Shown here piece by piece: positions 17,363 to 23,863 of a DNA stretch of 23,863 nt. Positions within the stretch are counted from its first letter, which is position 1, and each line of letters opens with the position of its first letter. The notes beneath the pieces were generated by a model, which had not been told where the DNA came from, ran no database searches, and worked only from the letters and a program-made list of their open reading frames with translations. The stretch comes from a virus. The stretch lies in IMG/VR virus record IMGVR_UViG_3300043570_001015, positions 1 to 23,863 of that record. One strand, written 5' to 3'. Made by a program: the position numbers and the translations under genes.

Positions 17363-18856
17363 TTAGTTCCATTCCTCGTCTACCAATTTGATTTCTTGTA
17401 ATGCTTGAGCATGGTCAACTAATACGTGGTCGTGTCTATCATGTTTGTAATCACTTAATTGTCTGTCTATAGGTTCACGCAAGTTGAGGGACTCAATTGC
17501 TCTTGTGCATGCATCTATGTTAATAATTCCCTGACCCTGCCCAACATGTATCAAATGAGGAGCATGAAACATCTCTCCGTGATTAGCGGTAAAATCGTAC
17601 CTACTAGGTGGACGTTCAGACCATAACTCAATTATCTCTTGCAATTCCGAATTAACTGGCATATGAGACATTTCCTGCCAAAACTTTGAATCTTGCCTAT
17701 CGCTGTAGTAGTGCATTCGTATCATTGTCAAGATATTACGCATCATCTCATGCGAACTCTTATTGTAGTGTTTTTGAGAAGCGGTGTGCGATGGAAGATA
17801 CGACGCAAGATACGGAATAGCATTTCGCACCTGTTGAATTGTAGAACCAATGCTGGTTGCTTCTAATGGTTCTACAAACGAAGAAGCCAAACCCACAGCA
17901 ATGCAATTCTTTTGCCAAGGCTCTTTAAGATGCCCAGCGTCAAACTTGATTACTCTTGGGTCATCAGGAAGTTTGTACCCTGACATTTGTTCTGCTTCCC
18001 GAACAGCCTCTTCTACCGAGATAAAGGCATCACAAAACACATAGCCGTTGCCTCTGCGTTCTTGTGTAGGTATTTCCCACATCCACCCAGAAGATGCTGC
18101 ACGAGCACGGGTGTACGGACGAATTTGTCCATTGGGGTCGCTTTCCGTTGGAAAGGGGATGGCTGAGTTGCAAAGCAAGAATTCACTAAAAGAATTCCAA
18201 TCGGTATTACCAACCTCACTTATTAGTGCCCTGTTAAAACCTGAAGCATCAAACCAGAAGTTGGCTTCTACGATATCGCCTTGCTTTGTGCGTACCAAAC
18301 TAATAAGCCCGTCTTCATCTTTTGTGACAGACTCAACTTCTCCATCAACAAACTTGATACTTCTTTTAAAAGCCAATTTTGTAAAGTACTCATTGAGTTT
18401 GTTTGTGTCAAAATGAAATTGATTAGTATTCTTGTGTAGGTTTTCTTTTCTTATTTTGTTCCGCACCATGCCAACCGTTGATGTCTGGCTTGTCAACATT
18501 TTCCCAGACTCAATAATTCCCATGTATCCTGCAAAAAGGCCGTGACAAAAAATGTCATCAACATGACCCACGCTATGAAAATAGTCCTTTGTATGTGTTG
18601 TCCAGTTTTCATAACGGATTCCGTACTTATGAGTAGCCAATGTCTCTACCAACATCTCCTCAAGGGGGATGTCAACTAGTTCCATAAATTGTTTCCAGTG
18701 CTCTGTAGAACCCTCGCCAACCCCAATGATGCCAATCTTAGAAGATGATACGACTGTTATTCCACAAGCAGGAAAAGCCCTACGCAAAATAAGGGCAGTT
18801 AGTAGTCCAGCAGTGCCAGAGCCTACTATGCCAAAGTTTTGTATACGGTTTTCCAT
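17363..18856 (-). CDS. Flavin-dependent tryptophan-halogenase-family protein
   Basis: 497 residues from the ATG at 18856, which has TAGGAGC just upstream; an in-frame start 15 codons earlier would overlap the oxygenase gene. The N-terminal Rossmann FAD motif is GIVGSGTAGL (residues 9-18), followed by GIIGVGEGST. The halogenase hallmark WxWxIP is present (GWMWEIP, W258 to P263). K77 in THKYGIRYENW aligns with the catalytic lysine of PrnA (K79), and E329 in SFVEPLEATS with its partner glutamate (E346). The key residues of a true halogenase are thus retained. Known members chlorinate or brominate tryptophan or other aromatic rings with FADH2, halide and O2, and need a flavin reductase, which is not seen here. 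The phage substrate is unknown. It lies directly behind the oxygenase in the same transcription unit. Confidence 0.9.
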   Translation of the reverse strand: MENRIQNFGIVGSGTAGLLTALILRRAFPACGITVVSSSKIGIIGVGEGSTEHWKQFMELVDIPLEEMLVETLATHKYGIRYENWTTHTKDYFHSVGHVDDIFCHGLFAGYMGIIESGKMLTSQTSTVGMVRNKIRKENLHKNTNQFHFDTNKLNEYFTKLAFKRSIKFVDGEVESVTKDEDGLISLVRTKQGDIVEANFWFDASGFNRALISEVGNTDWNSFSEFLLCNSAIPFPTESDPNGQIRPYTRARAASSGWMWEIPTQERRGNGYVFCDAFISVEEAVREAEQMSGYKLPDDPRVIKFDAGHLKEPWQKNCIAVGLASSFVEPLEATSIGSTIQQVRNAIPYLASYLPSHTASQKHYNKSSHEMMRNILTMIRMHYYSDRQDSKFWQEMSHMPVNSELQEIIELWSERPPSRYDFTANHGEMFHAPHLIHVGQGQGIINIDACTRAIESLNLREPIDRQLSDYKHDRHDHVLVDHAQALQEIKLVDEEWN

Positions 18857-18866
18857 TACGCTCCTA

Positions 18867-19448
18867 TCAGTGGTACCAGGTAACAAGTGAATGCTTAACA
18901 CCTTTAGTCACAGGGTGTGCGATATGTAGATACGGGAAGTTTGATGGGAACATCAGAACCCTTCCACATACTGCTTCAACAGTAACATCAAAATGTGGGA
19001 ACTCTAGTTGACCACCCTCTTCGGGGGTAGACAAAAATGACACCATACTGTAAACCCTACGGTTATCTGGACCGTGGTCAAAGTGGGGTTTATATTCAGA
19101 TTGTTCCATATACTTTAAAACAGAGTACGCTTCATGTATGGCAGTTGGTATTAAAAATTCATGCCTGTAGTCTTCTGAGACCTCTTCAATAGGATTACGA
19201 ATTGTTTCTGTAAAACGCTGCGACAATTCGGTTTCAGGGTATGGCTTCATCAATGGGATAAGGGTACAATTCAAGGAAGTTCTGTACGATGTTGATTTCC
19301 CAGACCCTACGGTAGAACCATCCCATGATAGTTCCGACCAGTCAGAGTTTGTTTCCTCTTCCAGTTTTTGCAAAAACTTGCTTGCGTTATCTTCGGTAAA
19401 AACATCTTCATAAAGGAAAATGCACGTCCCTAGTTTTGTAAGTTTCAT
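18867..19448 (-). CDS. 2-oxoglutarate/Fe(II)-dependent oxygenase, prolyl-4-hydroxylase-like
   Basis: 193 residues. The double-stranded beta-helix core is in the C-terminal half. The iron ligands are readable as H122-x-D124 (YKPHFDHGPD) and H178 (YLHIAHPVTKG), and the 2-oxoglutarate-binding basic residue is probably K185 in KGVKHSLVTWYH, where many relatives have Arg. The middle strand MVSFLSTPEEGGQLEFP is typical of the P4Hc/PKHD family, which hydroxylates protein side chains, classically proline, using O2 and 2-oxoglutarate. The length is normal for phage members. The start ATG overlaps the upstream stop (ATGA), with a GGGAGAG sequence somewhat far upstream. Such enzymes are common near structural genes of aquatic phages. 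The substrate is unknown; the collagen-like fibre two genes upstream is a candidate (inference). Confidence 0.88.
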   Translation of the reverse strand: MKLTKLGTCIFLYEDVFTEDNASKFLQKLEEETNSDWSELSWDGSTVGSGKSTSYRTSLNCTLIPLMKPYPETELSQRFTETIRNPIEEVSEDYRHEFLIPTAIHEAYSVLKYMEQSEYKPHFDHGPDNRRVYSMVSFLSTPEEGGQLEFPHFDVTVEAVCGRVLMFPSNFPYLHIAHPVTKGVKHSLVTWYH

Positions 19449-19843
19449 ATTACTATGAACTCTCCCTCATAATAAACCTCAGTAGTACTATCAACAATGC
19501 GAAACTGGTGCAAGCCTAGCGTACTGTAGCGTGAACGAAACATAAGTGAATTCTTTGTCCTTACCATTGGTTTTACAATTTGAGAAGAAAAGTTTAAGTC
19601 CGTTACTTCCATGTGGGTATCTTTTGGAAAGTCTATAAATTCATTAGTAACATCCACCTTGTGTATGTACCCTGCTTTTACTTTATCCATACAGTCAGAA
19701 AATTCATTTTCTGGAAAAGACTTTATACAGATTTTATCAATACCCTCTTCTATGCGAATTGATAATTGAGATTCTCTTGACAGTTTGGTTGCCTCATCTG
19801 GCACACAACCCATGCTAGATGGGACGCAAACAAAGCGTTTCAT
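19445..19843 (-). CDS. Hypothetical protein of the fibre-adjacent cassette
   Basis: 132 residues, unrecognised. It begins MKRFVCVPSSMGCVPDEATK and contains four cysteines (C6, C13, C39, C51), then alternating hydrophobic/charged stretches that look like beta structure (HQFRIVDSTTEVYYEGEFIVI at the C-terminus). There is no signal peptide or membrane segment. It is coupled to both neighbours by ATGA overlaps, upstream with the small helical protein and downstream with the 2-oxoglutarate oxygenase, so it is very likely co-translated with them. A small beta-rich virion or fibre-accessory protein is possible; function is unknown. Confidence 0.68.
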   Translation of the reverse strand: MKRFVCVPSSMGCVPDEATKLSRESQLSIRIEEGIDKICIKSFPENEFSDCMDKVKAGYIHKVDVTNEFIDFPKDTHMEVTDLNFSSQIVKPMVRTKNSLMFRSRYSTLGLHQFRIVDSTTEVYYEGEFIVI

Positions 19844-20067
19844 TCAATCTCGGCTAGTTTTCTTTCAATTAGCGTTATGCTATTGAGGAGGGTTTCTAGC
19901 CTCTGCTGCTCACCTATTAGAACTTCAGAAATAGTATAGTTTTCTGGGTCAAAGGTATCTGGATCAATACCTGAACGAAGAACCATGTGGTAGACCTCTG
20001 ACTTAACATTTGCCAAACTGCTTTGCAGTATGCCTTTTTTTTGTTGCGTATTTAGACCGTAGTCCAT
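19840..20067 (-). CDS. Small helical protein, copy B of a paralogous pair
   Basis: 75 residues, mostly helical by composition, with a central signature SEVYHMVLRSGIDPDTFD. The start is well supported by GAGGAGA eight bases upstream. The same signature (NEIYRMCVEVGRDPDTLD) and overall layout recur in the 68-residue protein at 16380-16586, so the two are paralogues lying on either side of the oxygenase/halogenase genes. The stop overlaps the next start as ATGA. I do not recognise a family. The size and helical character suggest an adaptor, chaperone or virion accessory protein, but nothing in the sequence proves it. Confidence 0.72.
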   Translation of the reverse strand: MDYGLNTQQKKGILQSSLANVKSEVYHMVLRSGIDPDTFDPENYTISEVLIGEQQRLETLLNSITLIERKLAEIE

Positions 20068-20078
20068 GTTAATCTCCT

Positions 20079-21788
20079 CTATGAGTTGATGAGTAAGTAT
20101 GCCGAGCCTGTGGTTGCACCTACAGTACCATATGACCCTGCTGTTGTATCGTATACAATTGTATTAGCAACGGCATCTGATACGACCAATATCGCACCTC
20201 CGCCTCCGCCTCCGCCAACGCCACCTGCTCCACCTGTAGATCCAGGAGAACCAGTTTCTCCAGTTCCACCAGTACCTCCAGTTCTTGCTGGTGCTCCTGC
20301 TCCTGTGTTTACACCGTCATTTACTCCACCAGCACCGCCTGGATAGGTAACCTGACCATCTGGGTTAGCGCTACTTGTACTGTGGTGATGGTAGTCAGCA
20401 TGGGAACTAGGATGAGTAGGTGCATGTGTATGTGTATGGCCTGGATGTCCATAGTGGGCATGGGTATGCCCATCATGCCCACCAACTGACCCGTGATAAT
20501 ACAAGTTATGGTGGTGACCGTTTCCTGATGGTTCAGCATGGCTGTGGTGACCGTTTGGTTTTTGATGTCCATGTATTGGGTAATGGGTCCAAGTCCAAAC
20601 AAAGTGGGGTCTCCACGCATGCCAATAGTGCCCGTCCCAGTGATGTGCGCCGCCATGTGGACCATCATTGTGTGGGTGATGAGCATGCCCTGAGTGATGC
20701 CAGTGTGCATCTTCATACACACCAATACCTTTTCCACCGTCTACCGTAGGTTTTGTTGCGTGAAAATGACCATCAGAATGTCTCGTCGTATGGTTATGGT
20801 GATTATGTGTTCTAGGGGCGTGGCTTACATGTGGGGCAACATGGTGGTGGTCTACACGGTTAGGTGCAGCCGCTCCGTTTGCACCGTTTGTTCCTTTGGG
20901 TACGTGTGTTCCAGCAGAACCAGGGCTTCCAGCAGAACCAGGGCTTCCAGCAGAACCAGCAGCACCATCAGAAGCGCCATGACTACCAACAGACATGACT
21001 GTTCCTGACCCTATAATTGTCTTAGCCACAACAAGAACTACTCCGCCACCATTTCCGCCTGTACCTCCTGCTCCACCAACACCTCCTGCTCCCCCTGCTC
21101 CACCAGTACCCCCTGCACCTCCTGGGGCGGTAGGGTTGGCTGAACCATCTGCTCCAGGATTGCCTTTCCCTCCAGGTGCATTGACTGTAGTTGCGCTAGG
21201 TGCATACCCACCATTAGCGCCCGCAGCGCCCGCTTTACCAGGCCATGACGCTGGGGTCGTACTTGGTGTTCCAGTAGCACCAGTAGCCCCTGGAGTACCA
21301 GCCGCACCAGTTGCACCTGTAGCGCCAGCGTTTCCTTTTGACCCACCACCGACAGGGATGATTGTCCCAGAAGGATCTACCATGATTCCAGAAAGCATCA
21401 TATTGATATTTTTATACAAGTATGAAGGCAGTTGTGGGATAGTAGGAGCCGTTGCTCCTCCGCCTTGACCACCTGCTCTGTACGTTATTGCTGACTGAGA
21501 GTGTCCTTTAACTGTCCCATCTGTAACAGTTGAGGCTGATGGGCTAATAACCCCAGAAGACACCGCACCTATGCCCATATGCCCATCTAGGGTCAGTGTG
21601 TTTCTTACAAATACTCTGTAGCCGTTAGTGAGTAGTACTCCTGATGAGGTGATTGTTAGCGAGTTATAAAACATGTCTGAAGTCAAAGTAACGGCTGAAG
21701 AAACGGTGACATCGCCATCAACGCCTGATCCATATACAGAATCATTTGCAATTCTTGCAACACTTTTTTCTACTCTTGAAATTGGCAT
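20079..21788 (-). CDS. Large adhesin with collagen-like, poly-Gly and His-rich domains
   Basis: 569 residues. Residues 19-75 match the paralogue upstream (VYGSGVDGDVTVSS ... NGYRVFVRNTLTLDG). Then come nine Gly-X-Y triplets at about 149-175 (GATGATGAAGTPGATGATG), a GGX-rich stretch at 222-249, a strand GGVVLVVAKTIIGSG at 248-262 and GSAGSPGSAGSPGSAG at 278-293. A histidine-rich region follows at 311-470 with 48 His in 160 residues and about a dozen H-x-H motifs, then a second Gly-rich stretch at 484-531 and a closing strand (GAILVVSDAV). HxH motifs bind iron in the T4 gp37 tip, and glycine-rich sandwiches occur in the S16 gp38 adhesin, so a metal-loaded receptor-binding tip is plausible. It could also be a structural shaft. 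Five or so prolines occupy the Y position of Gly-X-Y triplets. The downstream genes are a modification-like cassette. Confidence 0.82.
   Translation of the reverse strand: MPISRVEKSVARIANDSVYGSGVDGDVTVSSAVTLTSDMFYNSLTITSSGVLLTNGYRVFVRNTLTLDGHMGIGAVSSGVISPSASTVTDGTVKGHSQSAITYRAGGQGGGATAPTIPQLPSYLYKNINMMLSGIMVDPSGTIIPVGGGSKGNAGATGATGAAGTPGATGATGTPSTTPASWPGKAGAAGANGGYAPSATTVNAPGGKGNPGADGSANPTAPGGAGGTGGAGGAGGVGGAGGTGGNGGGVVLVVAKTIIGSGTVMSVGSHGASDGAAGSAGSPGSAGSPGSAGTHVPKGTNGANGAAAPNRVDHHHVAPHVSHAPRTHNHHNHTTRHSDGHFHATKPTVDGGKGIGVYEDAHWHHSGHAHHPHNDGPHGGAHHWDGHYWHAWRPHFVWTWTHYPIHGHQKPNGHHSHAEPSGNGHHHNLYYHGSVGGHDGHTHAHYGHPGHTHTHAPTHPSSHADYHHHSTSSANPDGQVTYPGGAGGVNDGVNTGAGAPARTGGTGGTGETGSPGSTGGAGGVGGGGGGGAILVVSDAVANTIVYDTTAGSYGTVGATTGSAYLLINS
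20911..20960. repeat. 18-base tandem repeat in the adhesin gene
   Basis: Two complete and one partial copy (14 bases) of an 18-base unit (ccagcagaaccagggctt on the plus strand) encode the Gly-Ser-Pro-Gly-Ser-Ala repeats at residues 278-293. Identical copies suggest recent slippage expansion. Confidence 0.75.
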
Positions 21789-21789
21789 T

Positions 21790-22554
21790 TCATACCTGTG
21801 ACATGTAGTGGACGGTTCCTGCGTTTTGACCAGTTACATCTGTAGAAATTCCAGATGGCAACGCTTCAGAAGATGATACAACAAGAATTACGCCACCTCC
21901 AGCAGGAGCAGTTCCTGGCGCTTTAATGTAGGCCGTACCTGTTGCTGGTCCAGAAATATAACGAGCAGCAATGATAACTACTCCGCCACCTGCTTGGCTA
22001 GCCCCACCTGCACCACCTCGTAGAAATGTAGGTCCACCAGATGCAGTAACTGAATAACCAGTTACTGCTTGACTTGGGATTTTAAAGTAGTTACTTCCAC
22101 CAAGAGTTGCTAATGGGGCAGTCGCTGCAAACCCAGTAGCAGAACCACCAAGGGAGTGTGATACCGCAGTAGATGCCGCTCCACCTTGCTTAATTGATCC
22201 ATCAGTAGCAAAACCTGTAATGTACCCAATTATGGAGTCGGCTCCCATGAACTTTAATGTGCCTTTAACAAATATCCTGTAGCCATTAGGTGCTAGACGA
22301 ACGCTCGCATTGATCGTCAAATCATTCAAATACAAATCTCGTGTCATGGAATAGACACTTGAAGATGGAGCCATGCTCAAAACGGTTGTAGTTCCGTCTA
22401 ATGTGGCATCACCATCAGCACCAGTTCCGTAGACAGAGTCAACGCCTTCGTTGTAATAGGCGTTCCATACAGAACCATCCCATTGCCAACTCTTAGAGCC
22501 AACAGTAAAGATTTGGTTTGTGTATGGAGAAGCAGGGAAAGTAATCGCTGCCAT
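21790..22554 (-). CDS. Glycine-rich tail fibre/adhesin protein, short paralogue
   Basis: 254 residues. The N-terminus carries the short fibre motif FPASPYTNQ...WQWDGSVWNAYY. A domain at about 41-110 (VYGTGADGDATLDG ... LYLNDLTINASVRLAPNGYR) is found in many phage fibres and surface proteins. The C-terminal half is glycine-rich with two hydrophobic beta strands (GGGVVIIAARYISG and GGGVILVVSSSEAL) separated by only a short linker. The following gene, 20079-21788, has the same order of elements with a very large insertion between the same two strands, so the two are paralogues. The start overlaps the stop of the upstream fibre gene (TAATG), and there is a one-base gap to the next gene. It probably forms part of the distal fibre or adhesin tip; this is inference from composition and neighbours. 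Confidence 0.8.
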   Translation of the reverse strand: MAAITFPASPYTNQIFTVGSKSWQWDGSVWNAYYNEGVDSVYGTGADGDATLDGTTTVLSMAPSSSVYSMTRDLYLNDLTINASVRLAPNGYRIFVKGTLKFMGADSIIGYITGFATDGSIKQGGAASTAVSHSLGGSATGFAATAPLATLGGSNYFKIPSQAVTGYSVTASGGPTFLRGGAGGASQAGGGVVIIAARYISGPATGTAYIKAPGTAPAGGGVILVVSSSEALPSGISTDVTGQNAGTVHYMSQV

Positions 22555-23863
22555 TATGCAGGTCCAATATCTTCAACAAACAATTGGTACTCTCCGAAAA
22601 TTGTTCCTGTACCTGATTGACATTTAGCCCGCACTTTTCTTGTGACTGACCCAGCGGTTTCGGTGGAAATGTATGTCAAATTTTGGAATGTATAGTTTCC
22701 GCCACCAGGAACATACAAATTCAAAGAGCCTGTTATGTTATTGGATGAGTCAGTGATGTATGTTTCAAGAGTTCCAGCAGCCGTTGCGTTGGAAGCATAA
22801 GCGTAAAAAGTATATTTGTATTGACGAGTGGCTATAGCAGTAAATGTTACGGAGGTTCCTATGTCGGCAAGTGTTGTGGTTAGACCTACTGTGGTGCCAG
22901 TTGCTTTGGCAATAATTCCCCACGGCATGTTCCACTGCTGTGACCACGCCGAACCATCCCAAGTTAATTCTTTTTTAGTATTTGTCTCATAGACATGTTG
23001 ACCAGTCCACGGAGAAGATGGGCGAGTAGAAGAGGTTGCTTGGTACGGCGACATTGTTCCACCGCCTAATTCAACCCATGCTGAGTTGTAATAGATGTAT
23101 GAAGCGCCAGTAGAAGTATCAAACCAAACTAAACCAGCAGTAGGTGATACTGGAGCAGTTGCAGAACTGACAACTACTGTGGCACCAGATACCGCCGTTG
23201 CAACAAAGGCTGTTGTGGCTACTGCTGTAGTGTTGTTTCCAGCAGTTTGCGTTGTGGCAATAGTGCCAGTTGGCAGAGTAGGCGTACCCGTAAATGTTGG
23301 TGAGGAAAGTGGAGCCTTAGCGTCAATCTGTGTTTGAATAGCAGAAGTTACACCATCTAAGTAACCAATTTCTGTGTCTGTTACGTTTGTAACTCGTGCT
23401 TGAATTACAGCCGTATCAACGGCAACAGTAGGTGTTGCACTTTCTCCAGAGTTATTTGTAAGGGTTACGCCTGTACCAGCGACTAGCGATTGAACATAGT
23501 TGCCAGTTGTGTCGGTACCGAGGTCAATTGCATCATTAACCCATGCTGTACCGTTGTACTTAAGGAAGTCTCCTGATGTTTTGTCAACAAGTGAAACATC
23601 GTGCATCCACTCAAGGTGGTTATTACCAGGAATAATTCTGATTGCAATTTGACCCGTGGAAGCATGACGAACGGTAATGAATGCAACAGCAAGGTCATGT
23701 TGTGGTCTTACATTTGTGAGTTTTCCATTAACGGTTGGGTGGGCAAAAAGGATGTCACCAGCAGCCCAGGTTTCGTCACCAACCGCAAGTGCACTGGCGG
23801 TGCTTCCTCGTGTGTCAAGACCAGTTAAGGTTCCAAAACTCATCACTTCGCCGTTGACGCCGT
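22554..23863 (-). CDS. Tail fibre protein, N-terminus cut by window edge
   Basis: The frame stays open to the right edge of the window, and the codons before the first ATG (23841-23843) read on as plausible protein (GVNGEV before MSFGTLTG) without a clear ribosome binding site. I therefore treat it as the C-terminal 436 or so residues of a longer fibre. It contains a segment typical of phage tail fibres (PTLPTGTIATTQTAGNN followed by TTAVATTAFV), preceded by a DAKAPLSSPTFTGTP stretch often seen in fibre shaft and head-binding regions. Further on are a short W-containing motif (LTWDGSAWSQQW) shared with two other proteins of this window, and a Thr/Ser-rich beta-type C-terminus. There are no catalytic motifs. 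Its stop overlaps the start of the next fibre gene as TAATG, so the two are probably translationally coupled. The fibre role is family knowledge; the receptor is unknown. Confidence 0.8.
   Translation of the reverse strand, partial: GVNGEVMSFGTLTGLDTRGSTASALAVGDETWAAGDILFAHPTVNGKLTNVRPQHDLAVAFITVRHASTGQIAIRIIPGNNHLEWMHDVSLVDKTSGDFLKYNGTAWVNDAIDLGTDTTGNYVQSLVAGTGVTLTNNSGESATPTVAVDTAVIQARVTNVTDTEIGYLDGVTSAIQTQIDAKAPLSSPTFTGTPTLPTGTIATTQTAGNNTTAVATTAFVATAVSGATVVVSSATAPVSPTAGLVWFDTSTGASYIYYNSAWVELGGGTMSPYQATSSTRPSSPWTGQHVYETNTKKELTWDGSAWSQQWNMPWGIIAKATGTTVGLTTTLADIGTSVTFTAIATRQYKYTFYAYASNATAAGTLETYITDSSNNITGSLNLYVPGGGNYTFQNLTYISTETAGSVTRKVRAKCQSGTGTIFGEYQLFVEDIGPA

Follow-up and report, generated by a model that had tools for sequence, protein, structure and literature searches.

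A glycine-rich phage tail adhesin with a histidine-dense head and its neighbouring halogenase and oxygenase genes

What is the role of a stretch of 160 residues, nearly one-third of them histidine, in a glycine-rich tail adhesin of a phage, and how is it related to a flavin-dependent halogenase and a 2OG-Fe(II) oxygenase encoded in the same tail gene block? The window, by which the whole analysed stretch of DNA is meant, is a virus record of 23,863 bases, probably a fragment, with genes for a major head protein, a portal, an HslV-type peptidase, a terminase, tail proteins and fibres. Terminase and capsid are closest to those of the Streptomyces phages BRock, GiJojo, LuckySocke and Alone3 (46-47% and about 60%), which suggests an actinobacterial host; the virus, a lake-type virus of bacteria, is an aquatic tailed phage, probably an actinophage.

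The adhesin and its gene neighbourhood

On the minus strand, the genes from fibre to halogenase succeed each other in an order which, according to synteny comparison, is kept in nearly all relatives:

22554-23861, minus strand: tail fibre protein, running off the window end (PHROG tail fibre families)
21790-22554, minus strand: shorter paralogous adhesin of 254 aa with the same N-terminal domain, without the histidine-rich head
20079-21788, minus strand: tail adhesin of 569 aa, glycine-rich and histidine-headed (open reading frame and translation, 33 viral relatives, alignments)
19840-20067, minus strand: conserved 75-aa protein between adhesin and enzymes (synteny)
19445-19843, minus strand: conserved 132-aa protein (synteny)
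18867-19448, minus strand: prolyl-4-hydroxylase-like 2OG-Fe(II) oxygenase of 193 aa (PF13640; phrog_61)
17363-18901, minus strand: flavin-dependent, tryptophan-type halogenase of 512 aa (PF04820, E 7e-106)

The short paralogue was the second match of the adhesin search, is related to the histidine-headed adhesin by hhalign (98.1%) and is syntenic in nearly all loci. Neither the 75-aa nor the 132-aa protein matched a family in Pfam or PHROGs. The two enzyme genes overlap (17363-19448, minus strand) within the tail gene block, and are found in dozens of viral contigs.

The adhesin can be divided into the following parts, with the boundaries of the four Gly-X-Y strands S1-S4 set by conserved anchors:

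21534-21737, minus strand: N-terminal beta-strand domain, residues 18-85 (AF2 pLDDT about 60-86)
21213-21347, minus strand: Gly-X-Y strand S1, residues 148-192 (length covariation; AF2 pLDDT mostly 76-91)
21051-21212, minus strand: Gly-X-Y strand S2, residues 193-246 (length covariation; AF2)
20868-20993, minus strand: Gly-X-Y strand S3, residues 266-307, leading into the head (length covariation; AF2)
20379-20858, minus strand: histidine-rich head, residues 311-470, 48 His of 160 (composition, conservation)
20208-20345, minus strand: Gly-X-Y strand S4, residues 482-527, returning from the head (length covariation; AF2)

The N-terminal domain, with the pattern YGxGxDGxVxI...DMYYNNLTV...TNGFRVFVKxTL, was found in viral scans to be common to many phage adhesins including that of the haloarchaeal virus HRTV-15 (hhalign 96.6%, E 6e-10, 43% over 56 columns). 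Among phage isolates, the adhesin had no relative beyond a weak match to HRTV-15, which prompted the hhalign comparison, and it is absent from the cultured phages of the collection searched. Viral loci with the adhesin numbered 33 in a first and 36, partly overlapping, in a second scan. A first alignment against bacterial genomes gave no relative, and an alignment of the N-terminal domain gave 16 records, two of which have a halogenase. These two (L211, L212), from one gammaproteobacterial MAG, show the adhesin-oxygenase-halogenase arrangement in bacterium-binned contigs and are possibly misbinned phage or prophage. Pfam and PHROGs yielded only a sub-threshold collagen match and a weak tail-fibre match. 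A Foldseek search with the scaffold model found no match in the PDB, gp38 included, and the matches to viral models were collagen-like with an rmsd of 35 Å or more and thus uninformative.

Among known systems, the glycine-rich gp38-type adhesins of T-even-like phages (S16, PP01; PDB 6F45) likewise adjoin tail-fibre genes, with a presumed distal tip position, and their beta-strand core with two long glycine-rich loop extensions would be in keeping with the predicted strand and loop order and AF2 confidence of the window adhesin. On the other hand, sequence searches and Foldseek detected no match to gp38, and the three-Trp N-terminal helical domain with which gp38 plugs into gp37 is absent, with neither a Trp nor a helix in residues 1-85. 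Equally, gp38 has ten short motifs and short hypervariable loops, whereas the window adhesin has four long Gly-X-Y strands whose lengths vary in step and a large conserved histidine-rich head replaced only between clades. Filing the protein as gp38 was rejected on these three grounds of missing similarity, attachment helices and short hypervariable loops; it is considered a new form within the known group of glycine-rich phage adhesins, with a surprising enzyme partnership. A homologous N-terminal domain and a glycine-rich body are shared with the adhesins of Hafunavirus, haloarchaeal tailed viruses, such as HRTV-15 gp33, and the Hafunavirus glycine-rich adhesin has been tied experimentally to host range (PMC8651126). 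Unlike the window, HRTV-15 has 0 His in any 60 residues, and the 8 kb of it that were inspected carry no annotated halogenase.

Histidine-rich head and Gly-X-Y stalk

The 48 His, six Trp and three HHH runs (at residues 314, 425 and 467) that an earlier note had read from the DNA letters for residues 311-470 are borne out on the minus strand, which the note had left unstated, as are the glycine-rich stretches on both sides, which are repetitive; the head holds 7 Tyr and 20 Gly besides. The remaining proteins of the window contain 2.0% His on average and a maximum of 13 His per 160 residues. The dozen or so H-x-H motifs claimed are indeed present, 15 if overlapping ones are counted, but do not exceed the 14.0 +/- 2.6 found in shuffled blocks (p=0.42). 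As the H-x-H count matches that of the shuffled block, the unusual feature of the head is its density of histidine and not the H-x-H motif. The His codons are mixed (28 CAT, 20 CAC), and Tandem Repeats Finder reported no array over the block except for a weak run of 27 bases. Plus-strand open reading frames over the block (20420-21008), rich in Met, Val and Cys from CAT and CAC read as ATG and GTG, were rejected as genes; they are a composition shadow of the His codons and a trap for gene callers.

Conservation was assessed with 23 homologues aligned over the head and the window sequence as reference. The window histidines are kept at 85% compared to 56% for the other residues of the block, and 21 His are invariant. 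Conserved stretches include HHPHNDGPHGG and HHWDGHYWHAW, conservation extends to Trp, Pro and Asp, and several H-x-H motifs reach at least 90% conservation among near homologues. In near relatives, dN/dS of the His codons is about 0-0.05 where measurable versus up to 0.4 for the rest of the head, and within the clade the head belongs to the best-conserved parts of the adhesin, its conservation being equal to or above that of the scaffold. Judged from these alignments, the head is a conserved unit under purifying selection within its clade. The statement of the earlier note that it is no frameshift artefact holds, since the frame is open and conserved, the codons are mixed and the His codons are under strong purifying selection; nor is the block a product of repeats, for which the tandem-repeat signal is too slight.

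Distant heads cannot be aligned with the window head yet contain 11-27 His per 60 aa, accompanied in some by pairs of Cys, in patterns such as PHPAGHNPHVAGN, TTPHHH, HSATIHEPHTCCGGH and SNHHFHQQ. The earlier note had named retained length with lost histidines as the outcome speaking against its reading; the distant homologues present the reverse, with His retained and neither length nor sequence retained. Across these heads composition is kept and sequence is not; composition would seem to be selected where sequence can change, a pattern more in line with multivalent binding of metal than with a single exact binding surface. In L028, L030, L117, L118, L120, L124 and L140, short heads mix Cys or Cys-Cys pairs with the histidines, and both the 2OG oxygenase and the 132-aa gene are missing from L028 and L030.

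The elongated part of the adhesin is the Gly-X-Y stalk and not the histidine-rich block. In the 23 homologues, the lengths of S1/S2/S3/S4 range from shorter sets (30/40/26/30, 33/40/26/31, 39/52/38/38, 45/54/42/46) to longer ones (48/60/47/47, 54/66/59/53, 60/72/59/59), with pairwise Spearman coefficients of 0.96-0.99, the p-values of which are inflated by kinship; the length of the head is unrelated to that of the strands (rho about -0.3). In L058, compared to its near relatives L057 and L060, all four strands differ by exactly 12 residues (48/60/47/47 to 60/72/59/59). L054 departs from this coupling, a single strand being longer by 18 residues; the adhesins of L053 and L054 are near-identical apart from this glycine-rich duplication in S2, which reflects either an assembly repeat collapse or real variation. 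Glycine is concentrated in one of the three phases (0.72 versus 0.47 in shuffled sequence), and AF2 assigns a pLDDT of 76-91 to most of the four strands. As the four strand lengths change together, the strands are suggested to lie alongside one another in a stalk that bears the head at its end, the simplest reading of lengths and sequence being an antiparallel Gly-X-Y bundle with the head at the turn from S3 to S4. This proposed bundle can be likened to the polyglycine sandwich of gp38 (PMC6851490, PMC12892980); as Foldseek found no match to the scaffold, polyglycine II (PGII) packing is argued from sequence and strand lengths.

In the AF2 model of the full protein the head has a pLDDT of 23-31, and modelling of the head alone with 24 homologues produced no fold (pLDDT below 50), so that by these predictions the head could be plain disorder.

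Downstream enzymes and their association with the head

Catalytic residues and motifs of both downstream enzymes are, as far as can be read from their sequences, intact. In the oxygenase, the iron triad H122-x-D124...H175 is invariant and K185 is conserved at 99% in 94 sequences, and the nearest solved structures are prolyl 4-hydroxylases. Collagen prolyl 4-hydroxylases act on proline at the Y position, in X-Pro-Gly context; in the Gly-X-Y runs of the stalks, proline occupies the Y position 118 times and the X position 13 times. The halogenase, aligned to solved tryptophan halogenases of the PDB, possesses the GxGxxG motif, the Lys of THKYG (K92), GWMWEIP and the Glu of PLEAT (E347). K92 and E347, which we take to be the catalytic pair by the known mechanism of PrnA and RebH, are invariant in 12 relatives, and the second W of GWMWEIP is F in L028. 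PrnA and RebH, the phage enzyme VirX1 and the RiPP brominase SrpI likewise belong to PF04820 with the conserved Lys, Glu and WxWxIP; unlike them, the window halogenase is located in a phage tail block beside a histidine-headed adhesin. SrpI demonstrates that peptides can be substrates of flavin halogenases, and tryptophan within peptides can be brominated by these enzymes, with disordered regions acting as the guide (PMC10858898).

When the halogenase is taken as the starting point, a Gly/His-rich adhesin lies 2-4 kb upstream in most loci whose upstream sequence is long enough, and this holds down to a halogenase identity of 44%. Starting from the scaffold, all histidine-headed close relatives with enough flank (49/49) have the halogenase and none is without it, while six relatives have neither and in two a halogenase accompanies an adhesin of 6-8 His per 60 aa. 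From a His-poor scaffold as seed, a second viral sample gave 24 loci with both and 34 with neither, no His-poor adhesin with a halogenase, and as exceptions one histidine-headed adhesin (9 per 60) without halogenase, one intermediate with and two intermediates without it. The two samples overlap in part and cover at most 80 relatives per scan out of 425 scaffold relatives; in both, the halogenase is missing from every adhesin with fewer than 6 His per 60 aa. Once near-duplicates are removed, 85 adhesins with the common N-terminal domain remain, of which 44 have both features, 37 neither, three only the halogenase and one only the histidine, the His counts of these four mixed cases being borderline, near the threshold. 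His content amounts to 8.5% in halogenase-positive adhesins versus 1.0%, and in 22 records lacking a halogenase beside the adhesin none was found elsewhere in the record.

Three adhesins with 8-9 His per 60 have no halogenase. The main exceptions to the pairing, L281, L291 and L303, have heads moderately rich in His, Tyr and Trp (HYHYNHWHP repeats) and no halogenase in their records. With regard to potential target residues, His is present in all and Tyr in 50/50 scored heads, and tryptophan was rejected as a universal halogenase target with 17/50 heads being devoid of it.

The tree shows two or more changes in the halogenase and offers 1-2 independent contrasts only. As independent events are that few, repeated joint gain of head and halogenase was rejected as a claim; the long-standing association would represent one old, long-kept partnership. 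Halogenases of cultured cyanophages and a pelagiphage (25-38% identical) have no adjoining His-rich adhesin in the regions inspected, so the link is specific to the clade of the window halogenase. Adhesins of about 230 aa with the same N-terminal domain, without halogenase and without histidine-rich head (L234, L240, L244, L260, L270 and similar), are followed, about 2-3 kb downstream, by a distant 2OG oxygenase (25-39%), so that the tie to the oxygenase may go further back, or reach more widely, than the tie to the halogenase. Furthermore, in L067 (Synechococcus phage S-H38), at about 18694, a small protein (PQC14_gp124) with a signal-like N-terminus and 25 His in 60 residues was observed; it is located about 5 kb from a halogenase and is unrelated to the adhesin.

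Proposed tail tip and competing explanations

We propose a stalked tail-tip adhesin whose head binds metal and which the phage's own enzymes probably mature, a reading which as a whole we hold to be rather probable. The beta-strand core would send out four Gly-X-Y strands, up, down, up and down, that would pack as an antiparallel polyglycine/polyproline-II bundle, with the 160-residue histidine-rich head sitting where strand 3 turns, at the far end, into strand 4. The head, for which no fold is predicted, would most likely fold or stiffen through transition metals (Zn, Cu, Ni or Fe) held by its dense imidazoles, a metal-binding role being its most natural reading and plausible from composition, and the metal-crosslinked tip would contact the host surface. 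Oxygenase and halogenase would most likely act on the virion and not on host metabolites, the oxygenase hydroxylating Gly-X-Pro of the stalk and/or the halogenase adding halogen to Tyr, Trp or His in the head. That head and halogenase go together so consistently suggests such a chemical finishing or hardening of the tip following its synthesis. Confidence is highest for the distal head on a bundle and falls through the metal-bound head and the virion-directed oxygenase to the virion-directed halogenase.

The earlier note had considered that the block could be a long multi-metal needle or a metal-dependent receptor-binding tip. The fibre-tip adhesin, the in-frame domain and a natural role for metal persist from this suggestion, while a needle of the T4 gp37 type, in which successive H-x-H motifs of three chains would coordinate a row of iron ions, appears improbable. 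It is true that T4 gp37 is reported to hold iron at H-x-H sites and that such sites have been proposed for other phages (PMC11705849), the fibre of Alteromonas phage R22Y belonging to the tail-fibre proteins with histidine-based metal sites reported or proposed, and that several of the 15 motifs are conserved at 90% or more. However, gp37 and R22Y have 6-7 H-x-H pairs, whereas the 48 His of the window head include H-x-H at the level of chance, are not demonstrably part of a trimeric needle and follow no regular unit, distant heads differing entirely. Equally, neither sequence nor fold comparison with the PDB gives a match to gp37, and the four antiparallel strands point away from a parallel trimer, towards a head placed between two strands of the same chain. 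That the head is functionless compositional drift of a disordered low-complexity linker, as the missing predicted fold and the repetitive glycine-rich neighbours might indicate, is hardly credible, being contradicted by purifying selection on the His codons, the invariant histidines and the conserved Trp, Pro and Asp as well as by mixed codons with little tandem-repeat signature.

An ordinary receptor-recognition region, His-rich on account of an acidic or metal-bearing receptor and with neither structural metal nor modification, is an unlikely but more serious option, since the scaffold resembles the gp38-type adhesins whose distal loops bind receptors (PMC6851490, PMC12892980) and the head is completely turned over between clades. 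A hypervariable tip, though, fits poorly with a head conserved within the clade at least as well as the scaffold, and one would not expect a receptor loop to stay rich in histidine through heads that cannot be aligned. The live rival, which falls short of being probable but carries real weight, is that nothing but the common descent of one phage structural module links head and halogenase, with the enzymes acting on host metabolites. The link could be of this kind, since the tree offers only 1-2 independent contrasts; the whole gene block is syntenic, and the halogenases of cyanophages usually figure in discussion as auxiliary metabolic genes (PMC10452541). Against it stand the persistence of both genes in the structural block while the head is rewritten, the absence of the halogenase from adhesins below 6 His per 60 aa and a proline position bias that fits the oxygenase type.

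Going one step beyond the stalked adhesin with a metal-binding head, a phage-encoded maturation line of the tail tip can be envisaged, in which the oxygenase would hydroxylate the collagen-like stalk and the flavin halogenase would modify Tyr, His or Trp of the head to give a metal-crosslinked halogenated tip; this remains a tentative and rather doubtful scenario. The Nereis jaw proteins Nvjp-1 and Nai11527 are His/Gly-rich, zinc-bearing, metal-hardened and reported as halogenated (PMC13120676), with a likeness to the window head in glycine- and histidine-rich composition that is an analogy only. With peptide-acting flavin halogenases and such polychaete jaw proteins known, modification of the virion is chemically reasonable. 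If true, the maturation line would parallel, on the nanoscale, the hardening of polychaete jaws, and at least one clade of phage halogenases would have a natural substrate. Through the matched strand lengths, Gly-X-Y bundle adhesins can be approached from sequence alone, and the heads form a ready stock of natural histidine-dense sequences for metal-binding materials. The near-perfect, long-kept pairing of head and halogenase within a structural block offers a concrete, testable substrate for phage flavin halogenases.
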